Assembly (NCBI RefSeq): GCF_002443295.1
Contig: NZ_BAOS01000036.1
Span: 1 to 34,707 of the forward strand
Length of the DNA: 34,707 nt
DNA from: Candidatus Scalindua japonica
GTDB taxonomy: Bacteria > Planctomycetota > Brocadiia > Brocadiales > Scalinduaceae
Direction: 5' to 3'
The notes beneath the pieces were generated by a model. The model worked only from the letters and a program-made list of their open reading frames with translations, did no database searches and was not told the DNA's origin. Below, piece after piece: positions 20,872 through 34,707 of this stretch. A program made the translations under genes and the position numbers. The number at the start of each line of letters is the position of its first letter. The first letter of the stretch is position 1.

Positions 20872-22530
20872 TTACTTAACACTTGCTTTCTTTATACATT
20901 TTTCGCAAGTAGTTCCTTTATCAAAACACTCTTTACAATCCGTTTTAGATCTATCCGCATAGCCAACGTTACATGAGGTGCACCAGATTGTTTCTCCGGC
21001 TTTCCCCTTTTTACACGCGGCACATTCCTGCTTGTGAGTTTTACTGATTTCTGCTTTTTGTTGTGACCTGAGTGACTGTATGATGCTAAGGTTATTCTCC
21101 AGTGTATTCAATCTCCTCAGAGTAGCGGCCTCACTCTGCATGTCTATGTACTTCTTAATCATGCTGGACCAGGAAATATAGGTAAACGCGTTCGGATTGG
21201 TGTGGGCCATGCCCTTACGTATGAGAAATGCGTCGTTCTCCCACATGTAAAGGAAGTCCTTCTCTATCCTGCTCGGGTTTCCATCCTTTGCCCAGAATTC
21301 ACCATAAAACCCGCCCAGGGTATTCGGCCATTTTTCTTCTACAGGGGCAGGAGCGTGAGGGCGGTCTTCCGGCATTGGATAAAGTGCCTTTTCACTGTAA
21401 AGTGACTTTAACAGCTCAAAAGACTCCTGTATATAAGCAAAGACAGCATCTGATGCAAGATCCATGGATGTAAGGTAATCCTTCGCGAAGATCTTTGAAT
21501 GGCATTTCCTGCATGTCGATACCCATGCCTTTCTCCTTGAAAGCAATTCAGGGTTTTTGTTTATATATTCACTGGGTTTGACCGGTGGGTCTTCAAAGAG
21601 ATTGTTATAAAAGAGCACATCTCCCTCACCCATAATAGCCTTCTGTACCATATTGTGAGAAAACTTTCCCTTATACTGCATGTGGCAGTATGCACATGTC
21701 GGGGCGGGCGCTGAGTACTCTTTGAGCGGCTTGTTCCAATCCCACTGATCTCCTTCTATCTTGTATATTGTGCCGTGTTTTGAATTTGTATAGTCTTCAA
21801 TGTCCGGATGGTCAGGTCCGTTATGACAGGTGGCACACGCTTCCGGCCTTCTGGCCTCTGATGCCTTAAACTCATGTCTCGTGTGGCAACTGTCACACTT
21901 GTGCTGTATATTGTGGCACATGTCGCAGCCCTGAACGATATTTTTGTCCATAGCTGCCCATATATCGGTATCAAGTCCGGCGTCATAAGCTTTTGCGTGG
22001 CTCTCCCTGCCTTCAGGCCAGCCCGGTATGCCAACTTTCTTCTCTGATTCAAACTCATCAAATTCCTTCTTATGGCATTCACCGCACAGTTTTGAAGTCG
22101 GCATCATCAGGTCTTTAGCATGATCAATCTTTTCTGCCCCGACTCCGCCATGGCAGTCAATACAGCTTACTTCGGTTATCTCTTTTCCAATATTTTCCTT
22201 TATATTCTTGAGATATTCCTGCTGATAAGGGAGAAGTTTGCTGAAATCCGCGTGACTACTCCTTTCCCATGCTTTCACAAGGAGGGGATTGATTGCTTTG
22301 TGACAGAGGACACACTCTTTTCTACCGTATTCGCCTTGCGGGTTTTCCGGAGGGGTATAAAAGTAACCCGGAGCCCAATACCTGTGTGTGGGTATGGGTT
22401 TCCAGTGTTCCGCGTACGGCCCTACACCCTTGCCCTTGTCTATCTTCTCATCAGCCTCAGGATTTGTGGCGGTAAAGAATGAAATGGTAAGCAATGTAAT
22501 CAGAAAACAAAGCAATCTGTTTATATTCAT
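20872..22530 (-). CDS. Octaheme HAO-family cytochrome c with a Cys-rich C-terminal tail
   Basis: A 552-residue exported protein. Eight CxxCH sites (C73, C123, C149, C202, C212, C232, C279, C340) with the order and spacing of hydroxylamine oxidoreductase. Signal segment LLCFLITLLTISFFTA. Hydroxylamine oxidoreductase-like proteins of anammox bacteria act in NO, hydroxylamine, hydrazine or nitrite conversions; those lacking the cross-linking Tyr are thought to be reductive. The region AHTNPNAFTYISW lies where that Tyr would be but does not match the usual pattern, so direction is uncertain. Residues 503-545 add CAAC, CTSC, CKEC and CEKC, four CxxC pairs without His, so not heme sites. GGGAGG precedes the ATG. 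A separate transcript from the second cytochrome. Confidence 0.9.
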   Translation of the reverse strand: MNINRLLCFLITLLTISFFTATNPEADEKIDKGKGVGPYAEHWKPIPTHRYWAPGYFYTPPENPQGEYGRKECVLCHKAINPLLVKAWERSSHADFSKLLPYQQEYLKNIKENIGKEITEVSCIDCHGGVGAEKIDHAKDLMMPTSKLCGECHKKEFDEFESEKKVGIPGWPEGRESHAKAYDAGLDTDIWAAMDKNIVQGCDMCHNIQHKCDSCHTRHEFKASEARRPEACATCHNGPDHPDIEDYTNSKHGTIYKIEGDQWDWNKPLKEYSAPAPTCAYCHMQYKGKFSHNMVQKAIMGEGDVLFYNNLFEDPPVKPSEYINKNPELLSRRKAWVSTCRKCHSKIFAKDYLTSMDLASDAVFAYIQESFELLKSLYSEKALYPMPEDRPHAPAPVEEKWPNTLGGFYGEFWAKDGNPSRIEKDFLYMWENDAFLIRKGMAHTNPNAFTYISWSSMIKKYIDMQSEAATLRRLNTLENNLSIIQSLRSQQKAEISKTHKQECAACKKGKAGETIWCTSCNVGYADRSKTDCKECFDKGTTCEKCIKKASVK

Positions 22531-23012: not shown

Positions 23013-24359
23013 TTATTTAGTATCAATCGTATTGAGTGTATCCGTATATTCACCCTTCTTCCAGAAGTCATAAGGTATATGTGAAATACCTGCTTTTTCT
23101 TCCAGTGCTTTTAACCTTCTCAACTTGCTTGCTTCTGATTTTACTTTTAAAAGAGACTCGTCCTGTTGAAAAGCTGCGACGTATGTCTGCATATCCGCGG
23201 ACATATGGAAGGCAGACTTGAAAACAGTCGTTCCCTGGTAGACAAGCATATCAAAGTATGTTCGTTCAATTTCCGTGATATTATACATTCTGCTACCCAG
23301 GTTCCATTTATGACCTTCGTCAAGATATGGCGCCAGGTCCTTTGGCATGGCCTCCAGGAAACCGTCCTTCTGTAAATCCTCAACAATAGCCTTTGCCTCT
23401 CTCACTTTAGTATGGCTCACCTTCACAGTTTCATCAGCTCCTCTTAAATACGCGGCTGCAAATCGAGATGAATGGCAATCGTTACAGATACCAACCCACT
23501 TTTTTCTTTTTGCCGCGTGTTCCTCTGCCCCGCGATCAACTTCCAGTACTCCCATATGGGAATATACCGTGTTTTCAACGGCGTTGTGAGTACCTTTGTA
23601 CATGTGGCAATAGGCACATGTTGGCGCCCTGTAGTTTCCTGCCTTCAGTTTCTTGTTCCAGTCCCAGTTGTCTCCATCAATCTTTGTAATGACTCCATGG
23701 GCAGAAGATTCATAGCACTCTATATCACGGTGGTCCGGGCCGTTATGGCAATATCCACATGCTTCCGGCCGTCTTGCTTCCGCGGCCTTGAAAGTGTGTC
23801 TGAAATGACATGAGTCACATTTATTTTCAACAGCATGACACTGCGCGCACCCGGCGACCTCAGGCTGAGGTTTATTGATCTGCCATCCCGCTTCAACTAC
23901 ATCCGGATGGAAAGCCCTTGCATGTGCAGGATGCCCTGACTCTCTTTCAGACTTAAACTGCTTAACCTGTTTGGCATGACACCCCTTTGTCCCACAAGTC
24001 TCTGGAGTGGGCATAGAAAGTTTCTGGTGATCATTTCCATGACATTTGTCACAGGTTACTACAGCTCCGCTATGTTTACTCCTCTTCCAGTCAAGAACAA
24101 TCCCTGGAGTCGTTACTTTGTGACATGTAATACAATCCGTTCCCTGGAATTCACCTTCAACTTTGTTGTCAGGTTCAAAATAGTGTCCCGGGTCCCACCA
24201 GCGGAACATCTCGATTGGTTTCCAGAATTCGCCCCATTTCCCTTCGCCATTCGCGAGTTTTCCAAGGTCTCCGGCATAAGCGTTCATAGATGAAAAAAGC
24301 CCACAAGCTGCCAGTGTAAATATAAAAAAGAATACGAACATTTTCTTTTTTCTATTCAT
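23013..24359 (-). CDS. Octaheme HAO-family cytochrome c with an atypical CX4CH heme site
   Basis: A 448-residue exported protein; signal peptide ending NAYA-GD. Hemes: C76, C103, C122, C171, C181, C201, C248 and C292. Seven are CxxCH, but the third reads C122-GTKG-C127-H, a CX4CH site of the kind known from cytochromes c3. The first 400 residues follow the hydroxylamine-oxidoreductase core (WKPIEMFRWW, EARRPEACGYCHNGPDH, NWDWNKKLK, PTCAYCHM), similar to the other octaheme gene. The C-terminal part (SAFHMSADMQTYVAAFQQ) contains His and Tyr where the catalytic-heme region lies; whether a cross-linking Tyr exists needs alignment. GAAAGGAAGGAAAT precedes the ATG. Likely a periplasmic or anammoxosome nitrogen-oxide enzyme. 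Confidence 0.92.
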   Translation of the reverse strand: MNRKKKMFVFFFIFTLAACGLFSSMNAYAGDLGKLANGEGKWGEFWKPIEMFRWWDPGHYFEPDNKVEGEFQGTDCITCHKVTTPGIVLDWKRSKHSGAVVTCDKCHGNDHQKLSMPTPETCGTKGCHAKQVKQFKSERESGHPAHARAFHPDVVEAGWQINKPQPEVAGCAQCHAVENKCDSCHFRHTFKAAEARRPEACGYCHNGPDHRDIECYESSAHGVITKIDGDNWDWNKKLKAGNYRAPTCAYCHMYKGTHNAVENTVYSHMGVLEVDRGAEEHAAKRKKWVGICNDCHSSRFAAAYLRGADETVKVSHTKVREAKAIVEDLQKDGFLEAMPKDLAPYLDEGHKWNLGSRMYNITEIERTYFDMLVYQGTTVFKSAFHMSADMQTYVAAFQQDESLLKVKSEASKLRRLKALEEKAGISHIPYDFWKKGEYTDTLNTIDTK

Positions 24360-25472: not shown

Positions 25473-26702
25473 TTACAATAATTTTAGTTTGAAACCATAC
25501 TCCTTACATCTCTGAAAAAAATTGTCTGCGCTGGAGTTATGTTTAATTATGAGCATACCTTTAGGTGATTTAGGCGCAATATAGCCTTTCAATTTAGGAT
25601 GCTGGCGTATAACATATAACATCTCAGGGTCTTCTGGTATTACAATGGCAGAACAGTATCCTACACGCAAGACGGCCCCCACCTCTGATGGTTTCTTGTC
25701 TCCAAGGAAGGCCCTTGTCGTCGACGGCAAGGGATCCAGTTCTTTAAGCGCTGTTAACAACTCCTTGCTGGCAGAGGTTTTGGACGGCACCTCCTGCATC
25801 ACCTTTTTATCAAACTGAAATTCAAAAATGCGGTCGATTCTTACGATTTTACAGTAACGGAAAAGTGGCACAAGTGTCTTTGCGGGACGGTCACATCCTG
25901 CCAGAACAGAGAGGTTGGATAATGCCTTAAATTCCGTACATACCGGTGGGGGGGGCGGCGCTGAGCAAAAGCCAAGCATGATCTGCCCTGTCTTATTCAG
26001 AAATATCCAATCCTTTCCTTTTTCCTCGGTTACGCAAGCCCATCTTGTAATATAGAGTGCTGAGAGCAGCGCCTGTTGCCCTTTTTCGTCTAACCATGAT
26101 TTCCAAGAATCCAGTGGTTGGTCTTTGATGTCGAGTTTTTTTTTAACGGGGAGAAGTGTTCTTTTTGGCAATTTGCTGAATTCAAGGAATGCTTTTCCAA
26201 TATCTTCTTCCAAAATGGCCTTGCCCTTAAAGCATTCAAAAAATAACATCAAGAATTCTACTAACCTGGAACTCATCGCAAAAGTAGGCCTATAAATCAG
26301 ATGCCCCGTATATTCCTGAACAAAATCTAATAATGCATCTTTTGCGGCAACTCGAATTTTTTTGATGTTACAGGTTGTAAAAGCGTTAAAGCATTCTCCT
26401 TCCTGATAACGTTTAGCACCAGATTTATCTTTTGTAATTACAACCTTACTATTAATCAATAACCTGGCAACGTCTTCAAACAAATATGTATTAAAATTTG
26501 CCTGTCTGCAAATGCGATCAACATCTGTCCTGTTAGGACATCCATCTGTTCTGGCTTTTACCCTGCCAGAAAGCAGAATATAAAGGACCGCTTTTATCCA
26601 GTATTCTGAATAAGGGAACCGATTCTCTTCCTCAGGGGCCGGTATTGTTTTCTGTTGAGCTATGAATTGTTTAAGATTCATTTCTGCCGCTGCTTTCGTC
26701 AT
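25473..26702 (-). CDS. XPB-partner-like protein of the helicase cluster (about 409 aa)
   Basis: Not a recognised named family. The first ATG at 26711 has its Shine-Dalgarno too close (GAGGATG); the ATG at 26702 is better placed. The N-terminal half is helical and winged-helix-like. The last 75 residues (VLRVGYCSAIVIPEDPEMLYVIRQHPK... then GMLIIKHNSSADNFFQRCKEYGFKL) match, by eye, the end of the helicase-associated module that also ends the 610- and 743-residue proteins here. A C8 run (25948-25955) in the coding strand encodes a Pro5 stretch in SAPPPPPV, a possible slippage site. It is the last gene of the cluster. Confidence 0.7.
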   Translation of the reverse strand: MTKAAAEMNLKQFIAQQKTIPAPEEENRFPYSEYWIKAVLYILLSGRVKARTDGCPNRTDVDRICRQANFNTYLFEDVARLLINSKVVITKDKSGAKRYQEGECFNAFTTCNIKKIRVAAKDALLDFVQEYTGHLIYRPTFAMSSRLVEFLMLFFECFKGKAILEEDIGKAFLEFSKLPKRTLLPVKKKLDIKDQPLDSWKSWLDEKGQQALLSALYITRWACVTEEKGKDWIFLNKTGQIMLGFCSAPPPPPVCTEFKALSNLSVLAGCDRPAKTLVPLFRYCKIVRIDRIFEFQFDKKVMQEVPSKTSASKELLTALKELDPLPSTTRAFLGDKKPSEVGAVLRVGYCSAIVIPEDPEMLYVIRQHPKLKGYIAPKSPKGMLIIKHNSSADNFFQRCKEYGFKLKLL

Positions 26703-26731
26703 TGTCTCCATCCTCGCATTTCTATCTACAT

Positions 26732-26989
26732 TCAGGATTGCTCGATAGTAAAACTATGGCCGGGTTTAATGGCAAACGAACTCCATCGATACTTTTTATT
26801 TTTATCCAGTTGGATAGATTGGGATTCGAGTCTTTTTGACGTTTGAAGTGGATCTGAACTCAAATGAATTATATAACCTATACCTTTGTAAGCAGGTTTA
26901 CTTCCCCAATTGAGAATCTTATTCAATCGCGCTACCGGATTATCAAGAATCGCAAAGTAATCTAACTCAATATCGAGTAGTGATGACAA
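26732..26989 (-). CDS. Small ORF after the HUH gene, possibly its frameshifted C-terminus
   Basis: 85 residues from a TTG, with no clear ribosome binding site. The frame is open back to a TGA only a few codons before the end of the HUH gene; read upstream it continues INGNNREAELSSLLDIELDYF. Adding one base near the HUH stop (GGATAAATGG, about 27009) would fuse the two: ...NYFIETVG-INGNN.... It may therefore be the C-terminal part of that protein. No domain is recognised. Coding-like composition but not proven. Confidence 0.4.
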   Translation of the reverse strand: MSSLLDIELDYFAILDNPVARLNKILNWGSKPAYKGIGYIIHLSSDPLQTSKRLESQSIQLDKNKKYRWSSFAIKPGHSFTIEQS

Positions 26990-27012
26990 TTCTGCTTCCC
27001 TATTGTTTCCAT

Positions 27013-27645
27013 TTATCCTACTGTCTCAATAAAATAATTTCTTATGAAAATATTTTCGGTATTTTTCTGATACTCCAGAAATACTTTTAGTATTTCTATT
27101 TCTGAATTTATGATAATTTTATTTACAATTTCATCTGCCGTGTAATCCGGCGGGGAATCTATGTGGATATGAAGATGATCTTCCCCCATGAAAAGTAAAT
27201 TAATTTTTCCATGAAAAAAATCACCGATGGAATTGAAAATTTCTGAAAATTTAACAAAATGGTCTTCAGTATTTGAAAATAGTTTTTCTCTTTTTGGTGT
27301 TATTATACACAAATGGTAATTTAATTCACAAAATATCATGTCCGGATCAAATTCCCATTGTTGTAATGCATATGCACGAAACCATTTGGTTCTGTCTGGT
27401 ATTTCTTTTTGAGGTCTGTTTAACTCCTTTTGTGATATTTCCCTTTTTGCTTCTTTTGTTCCAACAAAAGTCAAATTTGGTCTGAAAGCCTCACACTCGA
27501 AAATCTCATTTCCCTTTTGGGCGGCTCTTGTTAGTTCGCATAATATGCTCTCATTGAAACCATAATCTTTGCATAAATTACATGTTAATGAAGTTGTCTG
27601 ATTATGGCCTTTGAAACATTTGTTACATTTATTCTCAAATTTCAT
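27013..27645 (-). CDS. Zinc-finger plus HUH (IS200/IS605 TnpA-like) protein
   Basis: 210 residues. The N-terminus has CNKC...CNLC, a zinc ribbon. The rest matches the Y1 transposase fold: YHLCIITPKREKLF, then the HUH motif DHLHIHIDSPPDYTADEIVN, and at the end FIRNYFIETVG, which corresponds to the WxRGYFVxTVG box of TnpA. In TnpA the helix with the nucleophilic Tyr follows directly; here the frame stops there, so the catalytic Tyr is missing unless a shift into the next ORF restores the protein. It may be a domesticated HUH protein or a broken transposase. Single-stranded DNA binding or nicking is the family function. Confidence 0.75.
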   Translation of the reverse strand: MKFENKCNKCFKGHNQTTSLTCNLCKDYGFNESILCELTRAAQKGNEIFECEAFRPNLTFVGTKEAKREISQKELNRPQKEIPDRTKWFRAYALQQWEFDPDMIFCELNYHLCIITPKREKLFSNTEDHFVKFSEIFNSIGDFFHGKINLLFMGEDHLHIHIDSPPDYTADEIVNKIIINSEIEILKVFLEYQKNTENIFIRNYFIETVG

Positions 27646-27713
27646 TTTATATATTTTAAAGCTTCAAAAACAAAAATATATTGTTTCCTGAACTTCCTGT
27701 TTCCCTTATCAGG

Positions 27714-28151
27714 TTATTCATCTTCCCAACTTGGATATTGATCAGGGTTCTCACCTTCCGACTCGATCACCCTTGGATAAGTGATGCCTTTCACAAGATA
27801 CTTTTTCTTCCTCCCTTTTTTGATTTTAAACATCCATGAGTCACCAAAATCAAAATGGTAATAGAGTTTCAATCCCGTTAGCGGATACACTTCATTTAAC
27901 ATTGTGTCTAATCCCTTTCTTTCCTCAAAACCATTTTCATCTTCATTTCCAAAAACTCGCTCTCTTTTACGCCAACTCTTTCCGACAAAAAACTCGAAAA
28001 GGTGATCGTTGTCAAACCCGATTATCTTTTGAATGTATAGATGAAGATCATACAAATCTGTTTCTTCTGATAGTTCTATCACTCTCTTCCATGTGCTTTT
28101 AGCATTCATTCCTGACTCAAGTTCTACCGTTAGTGTATATATTTCTCTCAT
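27714..28151 (-). CDS. Plasmid pRiA4b ORF-3-family protein
   Basis: 145 residues matching the plasmid pRiA4b ORF-3-like (MM3350-like) family: YTLTVELESG...WKRVIELSEETDLYDLHLYIQKIIGFDNDHLFEF, then YYHFDFGDSWMFKI and an acidic end. The family is common on plasmids and in defence or mobile islands, and its biochemical role is not established. It lies 69 bases upstream of the HUH gene on the same strand. It supports the view that this part of the cluster is accessory DNA. Confidence 0.82.
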   Translation of the reverse strand: MREIYTLTVELESGMNAKSTWKRVIELSEETDLYDLHLYIQKIIGFDNDHLFEFFVGKSWRKRERVFGNEDENGFEERKGLDTMLNEVYPLTGLKLYYHFDFGDSWMFKIKKGRKKKYLVKGITYPRVIESEGENPDQYPSWEDE

Positions 28152-28254
28152 CTCTCGCTCTTATTAATTCCGGTTAATAGAAACTATTATTTGTTCCGAA
28201 TACGGTCCTTATTTACCAAGTACGTGTGTTTGTTGCTCCTTTTTCATTGAACTG

Positions 28255-28521
28255 TTAGCATTTTTTTACAGTTTGTTGGTCCGCGTTTAATTGTGAGAAA
28301 GCCCTCCCTTTTGCAATAGGTGTTTCAGGCAAGGAGGAATAAGGCTCTTCCCAATCTCCCCTATAAACATTCTTATCAGTAGGTTTAACACCCGTATATT
28401 TTAAAATTGTTCGTATTCTTTCCTGTCCATCTACAACTTCATAGATATAGGGATTAGAGTCATCATTTTCTTTCAAGTATTTTTTTATAGTATTCGTTAG
28501 TGTCTCCAATTGGATATCCAC
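28255..28521 (-). pseudogene. Fragment of a DUF262/GmrSD-type protein
   Basis: 88 residues from a GTG, containing IYEVVDGQERIRTILKYTG, the DGQxR nucleotide-binding motif of the DUF262/GmrS domain, and GRAFSQLNADQQTVKK, which corresponds to the following conserved GkrFsdL stretch. Full DUF262 domains are much longer and have an N-terminal QRxYxW motif; it is not in this frame. The fragment is truncated at both ends, so it is a remnant of a type IV restriction-like gene. Another frame just upstream (28540-28580) shows WKIDWETLVNSGYPIGD, which may be further debris. Confidence 0.6.
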
Positions 28522-28652
28522 TATTAACTAATGTTTCCCAGTCAATTTTCCAAAGGTAGAACTTTGGAATTCAAGCCCCAGAAATATTGTGTCTATTAAA
28601 AGTTTTTCTGGGCAAGCTTCCAACGGAAATCAAGATTTTACGAGCCACATAG

Positions 28653-28677
28653 ATACCCGATAAAGGAATTCGGGTAT
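28653..28677. repeat. Short perfect palindrome
   Basis: ATACCCGA (28653-28660) and TCGGGTAT (28670-28677) are inverted around nine bases. It sits in the spacer between the 610-residue gene and the DUF262 fragment. The sequence style resembles short palindromic intergenic units of the kind mobilised by REP-associated tyrosine transposases; an HUH gene lies 1 kb away. No strong T run, so not an evident terminator. The rest of 28522-28778 holds nothing else I can name. Confidence 0.4.
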
Positions 28678-28778
28678 GACAAACGCGGTATATGCAAAAA
28701 CCTAACCGGATGACGCTGGAATACCGTAATGATTATTTATATAAATTTACTGCAATTTTCAAGTAAAATTTCAACAAT

Positions 28779-30611
28779 CTAAGGCGTAGAAATTCCATAA
28801 CCCATCTTCCTCAGCTTCTTCCGAAATGCAGTCTCCTTTGACGAAGGTACCACAATATACCCACCTTCAGCAGATATACAGAGATTTTTCAGACGGCTGT
28901 CGTTGGCAAATGTCAATGCGGCTACCGGATCAGACACCTTTATAAGACGCGCGGGGCCTTCATCGCTGAACAGATTGTTTCGTCTTATCATATCTTCAAA
29001 AAATGATAATACTGTATCAGGTAAATCCTGGTCATTTTTAGAAAGAAGAAATTCTTTTATTTCTTCAATTGACTTTCCTTTTTCATATGCAATCAGTATT
29101 TTGTCAGGATCCAGTTTCCATACCTTATCCGAAATTTTGTTCGCTATTGTTTCCAGTAAAATAGCTTCTGAATGTGGAAATGGCGCTTTTGTTTCTGTGA
29201 TCTCTCGGTTGGGCAATACCTTCAATACTTGCCGTCTCTCTATTGGTGCAGCTTTGTAACTCTCTGCCAGCCCGAGACACCACGATCCCAGAGGATTGAT
29301 GCGAAAGTATTGCAGGCCATCGTAACGGCTGAGAAAATAAAGTTCGTCAGCTCCCCAAAGACCTCTGTAGTCATCTCTCGCCATTGAAGGCGGGATATAT
29401 GCCACGTCAATAATTCCCATAGTTGCCGCATATTCAAAAAGGAAGGCAAGGGTGAAGCGACCCTGCAAAATCTCCCAGGTATGTGAACCATCATATCCGA
29501 GAGAGCCATAACGAGGTTCACATATGTACAGGTTCCACTCATTTCGAGTCACTATAAAATTATAGTCTAAGGCTCTGATTGACTTAAAGAGGGTTTCGAC
29601 CGAGATCCATTTACCTACCGGACATGAGGCAAGAGTATAGGCAATGCACCTTCTTCTTTCTGCCACAGCGCTTAAACCGCGTTTTCCCTTGCCTTTCTGT
29701 CCTTTAATAGCATCAACTCTATTGAATTCATCTATAATTGTCGTACCGAGCCATTTGTTCCAAAGTGTCCGAATGGTCTCATGAGTTGGAGTGTTTAAGG
29801 CTTTTTGTCCCTGCTTTGTCAACTTTAACTTACTGCCTGACAATTCTGCCAGTTTAGCGCTTTGAACAATCAACGGCCATGCAAATGCCTTTATATGTCC
29901 TATTGCTGAATTGTCGCTATCTTTGTCAAATATATAAAAATCTCCATGCTCCAGGATAGACGCAATAGTTCGTGCTCCGGCTTCAGTCGGTCTCTTTGTT
30001 TTATCACTGACACCGATCTTTCCGGAATCTATAATACGTAATACTGAAATCACATCCTGCAGCGCCAAATTCTGTGTCTCAGCTTTTACAATTGGGATTT
30101 CACTGGAGACCTCTTTACGCTCATTACTTTTATAATCGTAACCGTAAGATCTCTGTATGAAGGTGTCTGGAACGTCACCCTCCACTTCAATTGTATACGA
30201 ACCAGGTTTCGGAACAAAATCTTTCAGGCGTACTTTCAGGTCTTCAGGCATTGTGCCATTAATGATAAGTAGATTTATTAAGGAAGGCTTACGTTCTCCA
30301 TATTCACTCAAATAGCCGGTGTAAGGCACACTCCCATACTTAGCCATAAACCTGGAGGTGTCAAATTGATTATCACATGAGTGGACAATCTCGGAAACGG
30401 CAGTTTGAGCAAGATTATCCAGGCGTGTCCAGATACTATGAAGCCCATCTCCCTTTATCGAATTACAAATAGATGTTACCATGTCCAATTTTCGGGTAGG
30501 CGGTTTAGGAGTAAGCAATTTGCAGATATTTTTTACTACCGGAGCGGTGTATCCATCCATTAGCGCCTCTTCCACTGTTTCATAAAATTCCAGTGAATTA
30601 TAACGTGACAT
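28779..30611 (-). CDS. Helicase-associated XPB-partner protein (610 aa)
   Basis: A 610-residue protein that overlaps the end of the XPB helicase gene by 14 bases, so the two are translationally coupled. The N-terminus has the pattern VVKNICKLLTPKPPTRKLDMVTSI, as in helicase-associated XPB/Ssl2 N-terminal-like proteins. Middle parts look like winged-helix modules (GQKALNTPTHETIRTLWNKW). The C-terminus, about 510-610 (LPDTVLSFFEDMIRR ... LIKVSDPVAALTFANDSRL, then GGYIVVPSSKETAFRKKLRK), matches the end of the PF13625-type module seen in the helicase and the 743-residue protein. In mycobacteria an XPB gene sits beside one such partner. The role is probably to load or regulate the helicase. Confidence 0.8.
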   Translation of the reverse strand: MSRYNSLEFYETVEEALMDGYTAPVVKNICKLLTPKPPTRKLDMVTSICNSIKGDGLHSIWTRLDNLAQTAVSEIVHSCDNQFDTSRFMAKYGSVPYTGYLSEYGERKPSLINLLIINGTMPEDLKVRLKDFVPKPGSYTIEVEGDVPDTFIQRSYGYDYKSNERKEVSSEIPIVKAETQNLALQDVISVLRIIDSGKIGVSDKTKRPTEAGARTIASILEHGDFYIFDKDSDNSAIGHIKAFAWPLIVQSAKLAELSGSKLKLTKQGQKALNTPTHETIRTLWNKWLGTTIIDEFNRVDAIKGQKGKGKRGLSAVAERRRCIAYTLASCPVGKWISVETLFKSIRALDYNFIVTRNEWNLYICEPRYGSLGYDGSHTWEILQGRFTLAFLFEYAATMGIIDVAYIPPSMARDDYRGLWGADELYFLSRYDGLQYFRINPLGSWCLGLAESYKAAPIERRQVLKVLPNREITETKAPFPHSEAILLETIANKISDKVWKLDPDKILIAYEKGKSIEEIKEFLLSKNDQDLPDTVLSFFEDMIRRNNLFSDEGPARLIKVSDPVAALTFANDSRLKNLCISAEGGYIVVPSSKETAFRKKLRKMGYGISTP

Positions 30612-32328
30612 CTTTTATATCTCCTTTTTGTTTCGCGTAATTTTTCTTAAGGATATCCTCGTAATCATGTATCTCGTATTGATAACCCTGTTCCGTAAGG
30701 AACAACTGGCGTTTTACGGCAAAATCCTGGTCCCTGGTATCGCGTGTTATGAGGGAATAAAAGTGTGCCCTGTTTTCCCCCTGCTTTGGCCTTAGTATGC
30801 GTCCGAGGCGCTGGGCCTCTTCCTGGCGGGAGCCAAACGTGCCCGAAACCTGTATGGCCACGTTTGCATCGGGAAGGTTTATGGCAAAATTAGCGACCTT
30901 GGACACAATAAGGACCTTTAAGGTCCCACTCTTAAACTCTCCGTATAATTTCTCTCGTTCCAGATTTGAAGTTTTTCCAGTTATTATGGGAGCATCCAGC
31001 TCGGTGGAAATCCTTTTGAGTTGTGAAATATACTGGCCTATAACCAGGACGTTGTCACTATCGTGTTTTTTTAACAATTGTTTGATAATATCATTTTTCA
31101 GGGGATTTTCTGAAGAAATTCTGAACTTTTCCCGTAACTCAGCTACGGCATATTCCATTCTTAACTCCTCTGCCAACGGGATGCGTATTTCAGTACAAAC
31201 TGCCTCTGCAATCCATCCCTGTTTTTCGAGGACTTTCCATGGAACATCATATTTCTTTGGTCCTATTAAGCTGAAAACGTCATCTTCCAACCCGTCCTCC
31301 CTGACTAATGTTGCTGTGAGACCCAGTCGCCTCTTGGACTGTATTTCGGCCGTAGTCCGGAATACAGGGGCAGGTAATAGATGTACTTCATCGTATATTA
31401 TCAAACCCCAGTTCTGTTTATTGAATAGTTCAAGATGGGGAAAACCCTCTTCCTGTTTTTTACGAAATGTCATGATTTGATATGTAGTTATTGTGATCGG
31501 TTTGATCTCTTTTTTTTCACCGCTATACTCCCCTATGTCATCCGCACACAGGCTTGTCTTATCGATAATTTCGTCCCTCCACTGCCTTAGCGCCGTAATA
31601 TTTGTCGCTAGTATCAAGGTCTGGTACTGATATTTTTCCATGACGGCAATGCCCAGAATAGTTTTGCCTGCTCCACACGGAAGCACAAGCACCCCGTTCC
31701 CTCCTGTTGCTTCTCCTCCTGCGTAAAATACATCAATCGCCTCGCGCTGATATTCCCTCATTGTGAAAGGAAGATTACTCGCAAGCAGGTCTTCCCTCAG
31801 GGTAAAGGTGATTGCCTCACCGTCATCATAACCAGCAACATCCTCAACGGGAAAACCGATTTTTATTAAAACCTGTTTTATATGGCCCCTGTTTAATGGA
31901 GCAATGGTGAATTCGAGTTGATTCAACTGCTGTTTGATCAATGGTATAACATGCTTATTGTGGGTTATTTCTGTAATCAGATACTGGTCTTGCGAGGTGA
32001 TAAGGAATTGTCCATCCCGTTTAATTAACTTCAGTTTGCCGTAACGGCTGATATTGTCTTTGACGTCTTCAACTATGTTCTGGGGAACGTCGTATTTACT
32101 ATATTTATTAAATATCTCTAAAATAGTGTCATTGGTAACACCTGATGACGCGGCGTTCCAGAGCGAAAGAGGCGTTATGCGGTATGTATGTATATGTTCC
32201 GGGCTCTTTTCAAGTTCGGCAAACCGTACTAGTTCATCACGGGCATCTTCATACCTCTGGTGGTCAACTTCCAGGAGAATAGTCTTATCGCTCTGGACAA
32301 TCATCGGGTTTTCAGGATTGTAGTTCAT
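30598..32328 (-). CDS. XPB/Ssl2 (ERCC3)-type DNA helicase
   Basis: A superfamily 2 3'-5' helicase of the XPB type, 576 residues. Residues 8-115 are the PF13625-type helicase-associated domain (IVQSDKTILLEV... ITPLSLWNAASSG ... YDVPQNIVEDV). The core follows: LPCGAGKT (Walker A, 216-223), DEVH (313-316), GLTATL, the XPB-specific RED motif (343-345), then the second RecA lobe with QRLGRILRPK. Residues 120-190 hold the damage-recognition-like region. It contains all motor motifs, so it should be active. Bacterial XPB proteins unwind or translocate on damaged DNA. It lies 66 bases downstream of the 743-residue gene. Confidence 0.93.
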   Translation of the reverse strand: MNYNPENPMIVQSDKTILLEVDHQRYEDARDELVRFAELEKSPEHIHTYRITPLSLWNAASSGVTNDTILEIFNKYSKYDVPQNIVEDVKDNISRYGKLKLIKRDGQFLITSQDQYLITEITHNKHVIPLIKQQLNQLEFTIAPLNRGHIKQVLIKIGFPVEDVAGYDDGEAITFTLREDLLASNLPFTMREYQREAIDVFYAGGEATGGNGVLVLPCGAGKTILGIAVMEKYQYQTLILATNITALRQWRDEIIDKTSLCADDIGEYSGEKKEIKPITITTYQIMTFRKKQEEGFPHLELFNKQNWGLIIYDEVHLLPAPVFRTTAEIQSKRRLGLTATLVREDGLEDDVFSLIGPKKYDVPWKVLEKQGWIAEAVCTEIRIPLAEELRMEYAVAELREKFRISSENPLKNDIIKQLLKKHDSDNVLVIGQYISQLKRISTELDAPIITGKTSNLEREKLYGEFKSGTLKVLIVSKVANFAINLPDANVAIQVSGTFGSRQEEAQRLGRILRPKQGENRAHFYSLITRDTRDQDFAVKRQLFLTEQGYQYEIHDYEDILKKNYAKQKGDIKDVTL

Positions 32329-32394
32329 ATCTGTTTTCTTGGATATCTTTGGGGCCCTGCGTAAGAATTAGTAATTTAACTGGCGGCTTTGAGA

Positions 32395-34707
32395 CTAAAA
32401 ATAATCATCCTCTTCATAACTGTCAAATCTTTGTACAGATTCCGGTTCCATCTCTTTCACCTTCGGCAAGTGTCCTTTTTTTCTGAGTTCACGCAATACT
32501 TCTTTGATGCCGGCATCCGATTTTAGAACCAGTACTGGCAGCTCATTTGAGTCGGCGATATGTTTCTGAACCGATTTTATGTTCTTAATATCCTCTAATA
32601 AAATACGGTCTTTGACCATTATATATCCACCGCATGTTCCAACTGTCAGAAGATCCTCTTTCTCCTTTAATTGTTTGAAAAGATAGGCGATATTCTGCGG
32701 CAGTTCCTTCCCTGTGTGGTCTGTTAAAAACGTTTTGATCTTTGCAAGATCCAGTTCAAAATTTGTAACACCCTTAATCAGACTTTTAGATGATAATTCA
32801 AAGATAATCGTATGGTCAATCTTTTTAAATTCAGTAAATTTTCCCAATTCAGACAGTATATCTAGTTGTGTTCCCGGCATACATAAAATCTCGCCATTCG
32901 GTTGCAATATTATTTTCTTTTCAGTATGGACCTTCGTCTGCTTTACGTCCATGACTTGATCTGTAGCAAGGGCAATAGCTGTTTTCGACAGTTTGAAGTG
33001 GGTAATACTCTTTTCACCTTGCACGATATCTACAAACCCAAGGAAATACATTGTTTTGATGATAGATACGTACATGCCATCTAAATCGTTATAATCAGAT
33101 TTTGATTGGATGAGATAATGTTCTTCCTGAATATGATCAAGGCTGTCATGAATATTATCTATTTTTGTAAAGTTGTAGTCTGCATACAACAACTCCCTGA
33201 ATTTATCCGTCTTCAGCCACTGGTGAGGCATGTCTTTCATGCATCGATACAGTAACCCTTTGAAATCACAATTGAGAGGAATAGCATAATAGTCTAACAC
33301 TCTGTTTGGTGATTTATATAATTCGTTCCAGTCAGTTGAGATTAAAAAGAAATTCTCGATTTCCTTCCTGAAATCCATGACAGACAATTTCCCGAACAAT
33401 AAATTTTTGCCTTTTTGTGTAAGAACAAAACACTTCCTTCCCCTGTTTGTAATGTATTCTTTCAATAAGAGAAATATTGATATACAGTCAATTTGTTCAA
33501 TATGATTAATACCTAGAATTCTGGCACATTTTTTAATTGCAGCCTTGGGAATCAGGCTTTTCTGGGTTGGTTTGACATGTGAAAAAACTAAAAAGATTAC
33601 GATATTTCTTGTCAGCATTTGAAGCAAAGAGTCTGTCGATTTCCCATTCATACTATTCGGTATATCGGAGATCATTTCAGCCATGATTTTCTGCTTAGCA
33701 GCCTCTGCCTTTGCGAGATATTCACGGGCCAGGAGAGGAAAAATTTCTTTGGGAATCAGTACATTGTTACTGTATTGGTGGTTCTTAAATACCAGTGCAC
33801 CCATATGAAACAGTTTTTGCAACTCTGTATACTTATCACCTTGTTGTCGGGCCTGAAAATGATAGAAATGGTTATTGAAAATAGTATTGATTGACGTATC
33901 CCATGCATGTACATTGTAGTTCGTAAATTGGTCTAACAGGACTTCTAACTCTACCTCATTTCCGCGCTGGAGTACGAATAAAATGATCTCTTTCTGCTTT
34001 GCTGTTAAAGTACTCTTTATTTCCTCTCCCCTTGATATGAGAAAGTTATAAAGAAAAGCCATATTGGAAGCCTTTGAGAGAGAAACATCAAACTTGCCAT
34101 TGAAATTTTCGTTTAAGTAATCTGTAATCTGTTTTACTTTTTCCACACCCATTGTCCTGAGCACATATAACACACTCTCTTTATCCCGGTTGTTTGAAAA
34201 AAGTAGATAGCGGTATTCATAAGGGAGTATAACTTTTTTCGGCTTCTCCAAATCCCAAATAATAAAGACCAGTCCAAAGAGGCATAATCCCTTTACCAGT
34301 TTTTCGGTAAACCCCGCACTCTTGATCTCTTCCCAACTGACTTCTTTTTTTGTTTTGCCACAGAGAAAAGAGAGAAAATGTTTCTCTGCCTTTGTTAAAT
34401 CAGCACTAATAGATTTAAACACCTCTACATTTGTCAATGTACGATAAACATATTGGACATTTGTTAATGTGTTTTTTGTGCCGGGGTTCTTATATTGTGA
34501 GAATCTTTTGATATTGTTCTTTATCCGGATAATATAATCATCCGATTGGACACTAAGGATATCCATTAATAGTCCGCTATCATAGCCTTTATCACTATTA
34601 TGATTAAACAACATTTTCTGACACATGAGTGCTTTTTTCGGTAATTTGTTAAAGAATATAAGTACGGAGGACTTACAAATAATATCGATTACTTGTCCCT
34701 TGTTGGA
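32395..34707 (-). CDS. Helicase-associated XPB-partner protein, 5' end beyond the window
   Basis: The first ATG in the frame is at 34626 (743 residues), but no ribosome binding site precedes it and the frame stays open to the window edge with coding-like sequence (VIDIICKSSVLIFFNKLPKK), so the gene probably starts outside. The long N-terminal and middle parts look like winged-helix repeats (SADLTKAEKHFLSFLCG). Residues about 595-690 (IILQPNGEILCMPGTQLDIL ... IIFELSSKSLIKGVTNFELD ... LPQNIAYLFKQL) are a clear PF13625-type helicase-associated domain, ending GGYIMVKDRILLEDI, VLVLKSDAGIKEVLRELRKK and an acidic tail (SYEEDDYF). It is the first gene of the transcript that continues with the XPB helicase. 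Confidence 0.78.
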   Translation of the reverse strand, partial: SNKGQVIDIICKSSVLIFFNKLPKKALMCQKMLFNHNSDKGYDSGLLMDILSVQSDDYIIRIKNNIKRFSQYKNPGTKNTLTNVQYVYRTLTNVEVFKSISADLTKAEKHFLSFLCGKTKKEVSWEEIKSAGFTEKLVKGLCLFGLVFIIWDLEKPKKVILPYEYRYLLFSNNRDKESVLYVLRTMGVEKVKQITDYLNENFNGKFDVSLSKASNMAFLYNFLISRGEEIKSTLTAKQKEIILFVLQRGNEVELEVLLDQFTNYNVHAWDTSINTIFNNHFYHFQARQQGDKYTELQKLFHMGALVFKNHQYSNNVLIPKEIFPLLAREYLAKAEAAKQKIMAEMISDIPNSMNGKSTDSLLQMLTRNIVIFLVFSHVKPTQKSLIPKAAIKKCARILGINHIEQIDCISIFLLLKEYITNRGRKCFVLTQKGKNLLFGKLSVMDFRKEIENFFLISTDWNELYKSPNRVLDYYAIPLNCDFKGLLYRCMKDMPHQWLKTDKFRELLYADYNFTKIDNIHDSLDHIQEEHYLIQSKSDYNDLDGMYVSIIKTMYFLGFVDIVQGEKSITHFKLSKTAIALATDQVMDVKQTKVHTEKKIILQPNGEILCMPGTQLDILSELGKFTEFKKIDHTIIFELSSKSLIKGVTNFELDLAKIKTFLTDHTGKELPQNIAYLFKQLKEKEDLLTVGTCGGYIMVKDRILLEDIKNIKSVQKHIADSNELPVLVLKSDAGIKEVLRELRKKGHLPKVKEMEPESVQRFDSYEEDDYF

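Follow-up and report, generated by a model that had tools for sequence, protein, structure and literature searches.

Among the closest described systems, the XPB-p52(-p8) part of TFIIH (XPB/Ssl2 and p52/Tfb2/GTF2H4) combines an XPB motor, which carries a clutch-type N-terminal domain, with a partner consisting of an N-terminal helical and winged-helix part, a clutch and a small C-terminal domain; the same features recur in the locus analysed here. The clutch of p52 is folded like the XPB N-terminus, with which it makes up a pseudo-symmetric dimer (PMC6422496), and the ATPase of XPB is both stimulated and limited by p52/p8 (PMC7708078). In the literature found on the topic bacteria are without p52. 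In Actinobacteria, Deinococcus and Paenibacillus XPB is paired with a 'helicase-associated domain-containing protein', and archaeal XPB has a dedicated partner, Bax1, a nuclease which binds the ThM and HD2 regions (PMC13024598). Archaeal fam18955 genes beside RfcS were called TFIIH-like and distantly RAD25-like in 2022 (PMC9258230).

The window, i.e. the whole stretch that was analysed, comprises 34,707 nucleotides from Candidatus Scalindua japonica (NZ_BAOS01000036.1). ORF calling placed P743, XPB, P610 and P412 on the same strand, and all features given below lie on this minus strand. XPB (30598-32328) is flanked on both sides: by P743 (32395-34626) upstream, across an intergenic gap of 66 nt, and by P610 (28779-30611) downstream, which overlaps the end of XPB by 14 nt and has AAGGAG ahead of its ATG. 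P743, XPB and P610 form an operon; this arrangement is established here and is kept in one other Scalindua; the trio is patchy within the genus, where 2 of 13 genomes have it. Scanning the locus for promoters and terminators gave chance-level results only. P412 (25473-26711) is found 2 kb downstream of the trio. A sequence-only reading of this DNA had noticed an XPB helicase with a RED motif and three further proteins on the same strand, two of them coupled or adjacent to the helicase, and the ORFs, the motifs and the distances given above bear this out.

The helicase is a genuine XPB, since its NF045503 score of 877 bits exceeds the cut-off of 610, and its motor motifs are intact (Walker A GAGKT at residue 219, DEVH at 313, RED at 343, and QRLGR, motif VI, at 506). 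Its N-terminal clutch-type domain (residues ~6-135, 31924-32313; PF13625 1.5e-36) is followed by a DRD-like stretch up to residue ~186, and human XPB (8ebt_A) matched residues 6-553 in a single-protein search. P743, encoded by the first gene of the operon, belongs to the 'helicase-associated domain-containing protein' class of XPB partners (HHalign 99.0%, E 9e-18, residues 355-731) and shares PF13625 and the adjacency to XPB with the known bacterial pairs; beyond such a pair, the window also contains P610, whose family is separate and has a lineage of its own, as well as P412. The P743 ORF is complete, because its Scalindua orthologue in locus L035 (73% identical, 747 aa) starts at the same Met.

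According to sequence profiles, P743, P610 and, less securely, P412 end in a common module of the PF13625 type, which is a homologue of the XPB N-terminus; for P743 and P610 this homology is established here. In P743 the module covers residues ~563-730 (32437-32940; PF13625 1.9e-5); its 25.1 bits are under the cut-off as a single sequence, which the orthologue in G006/G116 exceeds with 42.6 bits. The clutch and C-terminal domain of P610 occupy residues ~456-608 (28788-29246), and PF13625 matched 39 of the 40 members of the P610 family (best 2.3e-9), while the window P610 alone reached only 0.2. The module of P412 (residues ~245-410, 25482-25979) was recognized by phmmer matches to the Scalindua P743 (276-404) and to a 752-aa Chloroflexi partner (245-381). 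In a search of an 18-sequence set, the p610C profile matched P743 at 9.5e-7, the P412 of the other Scalindua at 5.9e-5 and the window P412 at 4.9e-4 (residues 316-409). The earlier proposal that the three C-termini share one helicase-associated module is therefore upheld by profiles, which give all three, P412 less securely, a PF13625-related module; the literal xGGYIxV...LxKxG pattern on which it had been built holds for P743 (residues 666 and 714) and P610 (583 and 600), but not for P412, where GYI stands by itself at residue 376 and LxKxG is missing.

In terms of TFIIH the common module is the clutch of XPB and p52, and the partners can thus be read as a p52-like subunit set. The p52-like fold of P610 is established by its AF2 model (pLDDT 84.6): in a Foldseek search of the PDB the first 35 matches were all TFIIH, with p52 on top over ~630 columns (8ebs_D 3.2e-6, 9pd3_D, 6trs_B, 6nmi_D) and XPB ranking after p52 over ~165-190 columns. 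The model aligned with p52/Tfb2, its best PDB fold, over the full length; differences in domain placement keep its TM-scores low (0.2-0.45). With this low TM-score, and for P610 only, the layout by fold corresponds to that of p52, with N-terminal and middle winged-helix domains, clutch and C-terminal domain. Near the N-terminus a SAP-like segment (residues ~23-52, 30456-30545), placed from the family alignment, is a probable DNA contact; SAP matched 6 of the 40 family members, the best at 6.1e-4. P610 is also related to the XPB-partner class (HHalign 99.8% over 547 columns). The structural comparison of the C-termini, which had been set as a test of their similarity, thus succeeded for P610 only; the AF2 model of P743, made from five sequences, had a pLDDT of 37.7 and was discarded. 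As a separate observation, one locus (L052) carries a natural P610-XPB read-through ORF without the XPB N-terminal domain.

At the sequence level, a partner profile built from 39 proteins adjacent to XPB, P743 among them, was searched against all PDB sequences. The best match was p52 (6trs_A, 3e-9) in two collinear stretches, together with the XPB N-terminus (7.5e-9), human p52 (9e-6) and yeast Tfb2 (4e-5), and no unrelated PDB sequence matched below 0.01; TFB5 (p8/Tfb5) gave E 1.7 only. The P610-family profile had no significant match among PDB sequences, p52 being reached only by fold and by the wider partner profile. The partner clutch is folded like the N-terminus of XPB, as the model shows for P610 and the profile for the partner class. 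These data also bear on a different explanation, namely that the partners merely share a domain copied from the XPB N-terminus within prokaryotes and dock on XPB by it, p52 having gained the domain separately, so that they would not be relatives of p52. It agrees with PF13625 spanning both XPB and the partners, with partner N-termini that are very diverse (SWIM or SAP-like elements, and in one case a WYL domain), and with a p52 sequence signal that lies mostly within the clutch (profile ~247-356). We regard it as rather unlikely, considering that the match to p52 runs collinearly and takes in a stretch ahead of the clutch (weak by itself, i-E 0.34), that P610 is p52-like over its full length by fold, and that the Pfam Tfb2 family PF03849 matches partners and not the window XPB (no match at E<=1, despite its strong PF13625 match). 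PF03849 is above its cut-off in two relatives (L155, 752 aa, 38.4 bits; L208, 37.1 bits); P743 and P610 of the window were not matched and stay below the Pfam cut-off.

We therefore prefer to see in P743-XPB-P610 what is probably a bacterial counterpart of the TFIIH XPB-p52 sub-assembly, in which p52-like clutch subunits would hold and regulate XPB. TFIIH offers the best PDB match of the partners both by fold and by profile. The locus differs from TFIIH in having two or more partners per XPB, diverse partner N-termini and a sequence identity of only 10-15%, and XPD, p44, p34, p62 and p8 were not recognised among the window genes scanned; it differs from XPB-Bax1 in that the partners carry a clutch and match no nuclease family. 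By analogy with TFIIH we infer that the partners bind XPB and regulate the motor. XPB would be the ATP-driven DNA motor, and P743, P610 and perhaps P412 would be p52-like subunits, at least two of them here. The variable N-terminus of a partner (in P610 the SAP-like element and winged helices) may contact DNA or a target, while its C-terminal clutch would pair with the XPB N-terminal domain of the same fold, thereby holding the motor and controlling its speed in the manner of eukaryotic p52. The most likely job of such an assembly would be the opening or remodelling of damaged or blocked DNA. Should the partners indeed be clutch subunits of the p52 kind, bacterial XPB would have a regulatory subunit amenable to purification and assay in simple systems, and phylogenies of Asgard archaea and bacteria could be used to test where TFIIH came from. 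Since the literature found denies p52 to bacteria, a p52-like operon makes a bacterial TFIIH-like sub-complex testable.

Systematic linkage of the partners to XPB is established by the survey of other genomes. XPB was present in 165 of 392 Planctomycetota genomes, and 34 of 39 XPB loci in this phylum had a module-bearing neighbour (raw counts, kinship ignored); no other ORF among the 1,814 scored at these loci matched the module. In Cyanobacteria P610 was beside XPB in 10 of 10 genomes and at 11 of 11 full-length P610 loci (Fisher 1e-18, kinship ignored). Co-occurrence, which had been named as a test, exceeds chance by far both for P610 and for the P743 class. Since XPB is accompanied by two or more module proteins at several loci (the window, L035, L036 with XPB, P610 and two more, and L234), it is likely that they form a multi-subunit assembly.

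The place of P412 in this assembly is uncertain. The protein, 412 aa long and not 409, was related to the partner class by HHalign (91%, E 1e-6, residues 213-410), and the partner profile gave 20.4 bits for it and 28.1 bits for its orthologue, the best of 2,000 shuffles reaching 5.3; it had no Pfam match, PF13625 included, nor a match to the XPB N-terminal profile. There is an even chance that P412 is an independent protein with the same module, standing 2 kb downstream by coincidence. In the other genome that has it (G006) P412 sits apart on a 3.3-kb contig, where the membrane gene downstream of it is the same but the upstream genes differ, and it was absent from every other XPB locus examined. 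Against an independent role speak its strand and module, shared with the XPB partners, and its presence in both Scalindua genomes with the trio, all other relatives searched being without it. No P412 was found on plasmids. As a fixed arrangement, the four-component set suggested by the sequence-only reading is not supported in view of these two genomes, the separate contig and the other XPB loci.

Three genes lie between P610 and P412: an 88-aa GmrSD_N remnant (28255-28521; PF03235 4.9e-4), a pRiA4b ORF-3-like protein (27714-28151; PF07929, PRiA4_ORF3, 4.7e-19) and a Y1/IS200-like HUH protein with an N-terminal extension (27013-27645; PF01797, Y1_Tnp, 1.4e-11). Their identities, as first proposed, agree with Pfam; their inclusion in the set does not stand, since in the other Scalindua their place is taken by a PIN protein and a duplicate of the P610 tail. 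For the pRiA4b protein this exclusion is only probable, and a relative from the same BLAST cluster adjoins a Chloroflexi XPB set (L037:3101-4501).

The GmrSD remnant and the patchy trio would also fit a system of anti-phage or plasmid-targeting defence, in which XPB would serve as motor and the partners for recognition. Proteobacteria, Verrucomicrobia and one acidobacterium have P610 homologues that retain the module although their genomes are without XPB, so P610 is not dependent on XPB everywhere, which counts against the TFIIH-like reading. Their neighbours are mixed (PAS kinases, metabolism, some defence), and AbiE, JetB, TIR or type I methyltransferase genes are among them, in raw counts without a control set. 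P610 was also found on plasmids, once next to Hachiman HamA and a DEAD/DEAH helicase. We nevertheless consider a defence role unlikely: PADLOC gave no hit for P743 or P412, gave chance level (0.018) for P610 and matched XPB with generic helicase models; no effector nuclease was recognised; XPB with a partner is widespread in Planctomycetota; and neither P610 and XPB in viral contigs nor P610 in phages was found in the collections searched. Of the multi-subunit repair or defence machine envisaged earlier, the multi-subunit part is retained as likely, the defence part is weak, coming from plasmids and some neighbours, and repair derives from the relatives of XPB.

Asgard archaea extend the comparison. 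Among 227 genomes of the phylum, 40 had XPB, 43 a p52-like gene and 39 both (kinship ignored); 12 of 20 members of the p52-like set matched PF03849 (best 6e-5), and an Asgard-only profile matched XPB (0.0015), not p52, in the PDB. It is an evenly balanced proposition that XPB of bacteria and Asgard archaea generally acts in a TFIIH-like XPB-p52 complex, so that the XPB-p52 heart would be older than eukaryotes; in this view anammox bacteria and some Chloroflexi have a multi-p52 version with clutch subunits competing for or sharing one motor. The passages of PMC9258230 on fam18955 give neither the p52 name nor a link to XPB; a Thorarchaeota p52-like gene of 570-588 aa beside RfcS (L151, L152) fits their description, and, judged by the RfcS neighbour alone, this gene may be fam18955.

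The window comprises an entire contig (C36) of the 4.8-Mb genome, and its minus strand encodes the partner protein P743 (743 aa), the DNA helicase XPB (576 aa) and a second partner, P610 (610 aa), whose nearest named relatives come from Candidatus Scalindua. Since the P610 ATG, preceded by AAGGAG, lies within a 14 nt overlap with the XPB stop, and 66 nt separate P743 from XPB, these three genes likely form an operon. XPB matched NF045503 with 877 bits and retained the motor motifs and RED. The third partner, P412 (412 aa), is located 2 kb beyond P610, the interval being occupied by three other genes: a remnant of GmrSD_N, one resembling pRiA4b ORF-3 (27714-28151) and one for an HUH (Y1) protein; a 466-aa pRiA4b ORF-3-like ORF was also seen near a Chloroflexi XPB set (L037:3101-4501). 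Two hydroxylamine-oxidoreductase-like multihaem (octahaem) cytochromes at 20872-22530 and 23013-24359 are consistent with an anammox host.

The sequence-only reading held that the three partners share a C-terminal motif. P743 and P610 carry this motif exactly as written, P412 only a degenerate form of it; the sharing was therefore examined by profiles. A profile of the P610 C-terminus detected, in a set of 18 proteins, the C-terminus of P743 (9.5e-7) and P412 (5.9e-5 and 4.9e-4), and a profile of other XPB partners gave 20 bits for P412 and 28 bits for its orthologue, against at most 5.3 bits in 2,000 shuffles. In profile-profile comparison with the 'helicase-associated domain-containing protein' class of XPB partners, P610 reached 99.8% across 547 columns, P743 99.0% in its C-terminal half, and P412 91%. 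PF13625, which is also the N-terminal domain of XPB, was found in 39/40 P610 homologues (best 2.3e-9), and the P743 orthologue exceeded its cut-off. These matches support homology of the module in all three C-termini, and for P610 only a structure model adds to this.

In human TFIIH the p52 clutch (residues 306-399) and the XPB N-terminal domain have the same fold and form a pseudo-symmetric dimer (PMC6422496). The AF2 model of P610 (pLDDT 84.6, built with 40 homologues) predicted a fold whose top 35 PDB matches were all TFIIH, the best being p52 chains over the full length, followed by XPB chains over the module only; TM-scores to p52 were low because the domains are displaced. A profile of 39 XPB-adjacent partners, P743 included, matched p52 (6trs_A, 3e-9) in two collinear stretches, as well as XPB, human p52 and yeast Tfb2, with no unrelated PDB match below 0.01. 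The Pfam model of eukaryotic Tfb2 exceeded its cut-off in two XPB partners, and in genome-wide scans XPB partners were its top matches in six genomes; its weak, scattered matches elsewhere (e.g. 9.5e-5 in genome G010, at a different place in the model) resemble chance hits, and the window XPB gave no match. The fold, the PDB profile matches and the Tfb2 signal in partners but not in XPB together make the partners p52-like rather than merely XPB-like. This reading is weakened by the clutch holding most of the sequence signal.

Linkage to XPB was likewise established. XPB is present in 165/392 Planctomycetota genomes, and a module-bearing gene adjoins it in 34 of 39 loci (one genome per family), while none of the remaining 1,814 ORFs at these loci scored with the module profiles. 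Three partners from Planctomycetota had gone into these profiles, which makes the count mildly circular; those for P610 and XPB are independent of them. Some of the five partner-less loci are on contigs ending nearby. Among 367 Cyanobacteria, 11 carry XPB and 10 full-length P610, all 10 of the latter with XPB (Fisher 1e-18, uncorrected for ancestry); 11/11 P610 loci are within 3.4 kb of XPB on the same strand. P610 occurred in 4 of the first 78 relatives, each time together with an intact or remnant XPB. Of 227 genomes from the phylum to which a Thorarchaeota MAG belongs, 40 have XPB with this domain, 43 a p52-like protein (~590 aa) and 39 both, 26 pairs being at most 8 kb apart on a single contig; PF03849 was found in 12/20 Asgard p52-like members (best 6e-5). 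The p52-like gene adjoins RfcS in two loci (L151:3361-5073, L152:7538-9304), therefore these contigs look archaeal.

The P743-XPB-P610 set is present in two Scalindua genomes, an Anaerolineae contig (L036) carries XPB, P610 and two further partners, of which one bears a SWIM zinc finger and the other has the module twice, and at a planctomycete locus (L234) XPB is accompanied by a P610-like gene and a partner of 654 aa; thus the multi-p52 arrangement recurs. The exact set of four genes including P412 does not, P412 having been found only in this genome and G006, where it is on a separate contig with different upstream genes. G006 also has a second, truncated P610 C-terminal module (L004:155-463), 1 kb downstream of P610 beyond a PIN-domain-like gene. 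Further domains related to DNA thus occur in XPB partners: the SWIM finger is N-terminal (L036:3710-6046), and another partner has a C-terminal WYL (L162:9966-12095).

Some observations run against this picture. P610 homologues of Proteobacteria, Verrucomicrobia and one acidobacterium retain the module in genomes where searches found no XPB and no other protein with PF13625. In Scalindua SCAELEC01 the XPB ORF (L034:8900-9979) has 359 aa and lacks, in frame, residues ~162-364 (Walker A, DEVH, RED), reflecting either a decayed set or assembly collapse; the downstream P610 is still open. Such cases reflect either an XPB-independent role of P610 or decaying sets. Polaromonas glacialis has three P610 loci, one apparently split, with no XPB nearby (L069:9908-11767, L072:9908-11767, L083:3008-4309). 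In a Richelia MAG (L052:4244-6988) P610 reads in frame into XPB at the RecA1 start, so that the N-terminal domain of XPB and the DRD are missing and the P610 module seems to take the place of that domain; this could be an assembly artefact.

The pair of XPB plus helicase-associated protein is already annotated in databases. A 2022 study termed fam18955 TFIIH-like from distant RAD25 similarity (PMC9258230), and the Asgard gene, which fits the description of this family, is probably the one noticed there. Bacteria were stated to lack p52 (PMC3353954), and our identification of p52-like clutch subunits among bacterial partners runs counter to that; no prior report of it was found in the open-access papers searched.

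It is known that p52/p8 stimulate and cap XPB (PMC7708078). By analogy with TFIIH, P610 or P743 would pair through its clutch with the XPB N-terminus, tether the motor and set the ATPase rate of XPB, and the N-terminal parts of the partners might select DNA or partners. Two or three partners per XPB may compete or build a larger assembly. A role in DNA repair or remodelling is favoured, because XPB with a partner is widespread in many chromosomes. P610 might instead be a defence component, a less favoured but conceivable reading, as it also occurs on plasmids, once adjoining Hachiman. Sixteen plasmid records carry P610 homologues, chiefly of Rhodococcus, Cupriavidus and Polaromonas; on the conjugative Polaromonas plasmid pPNAP01 the homologue (L169:6908-8683) adjoins a DEAD/DEAH helicase and Hachiman HamA.
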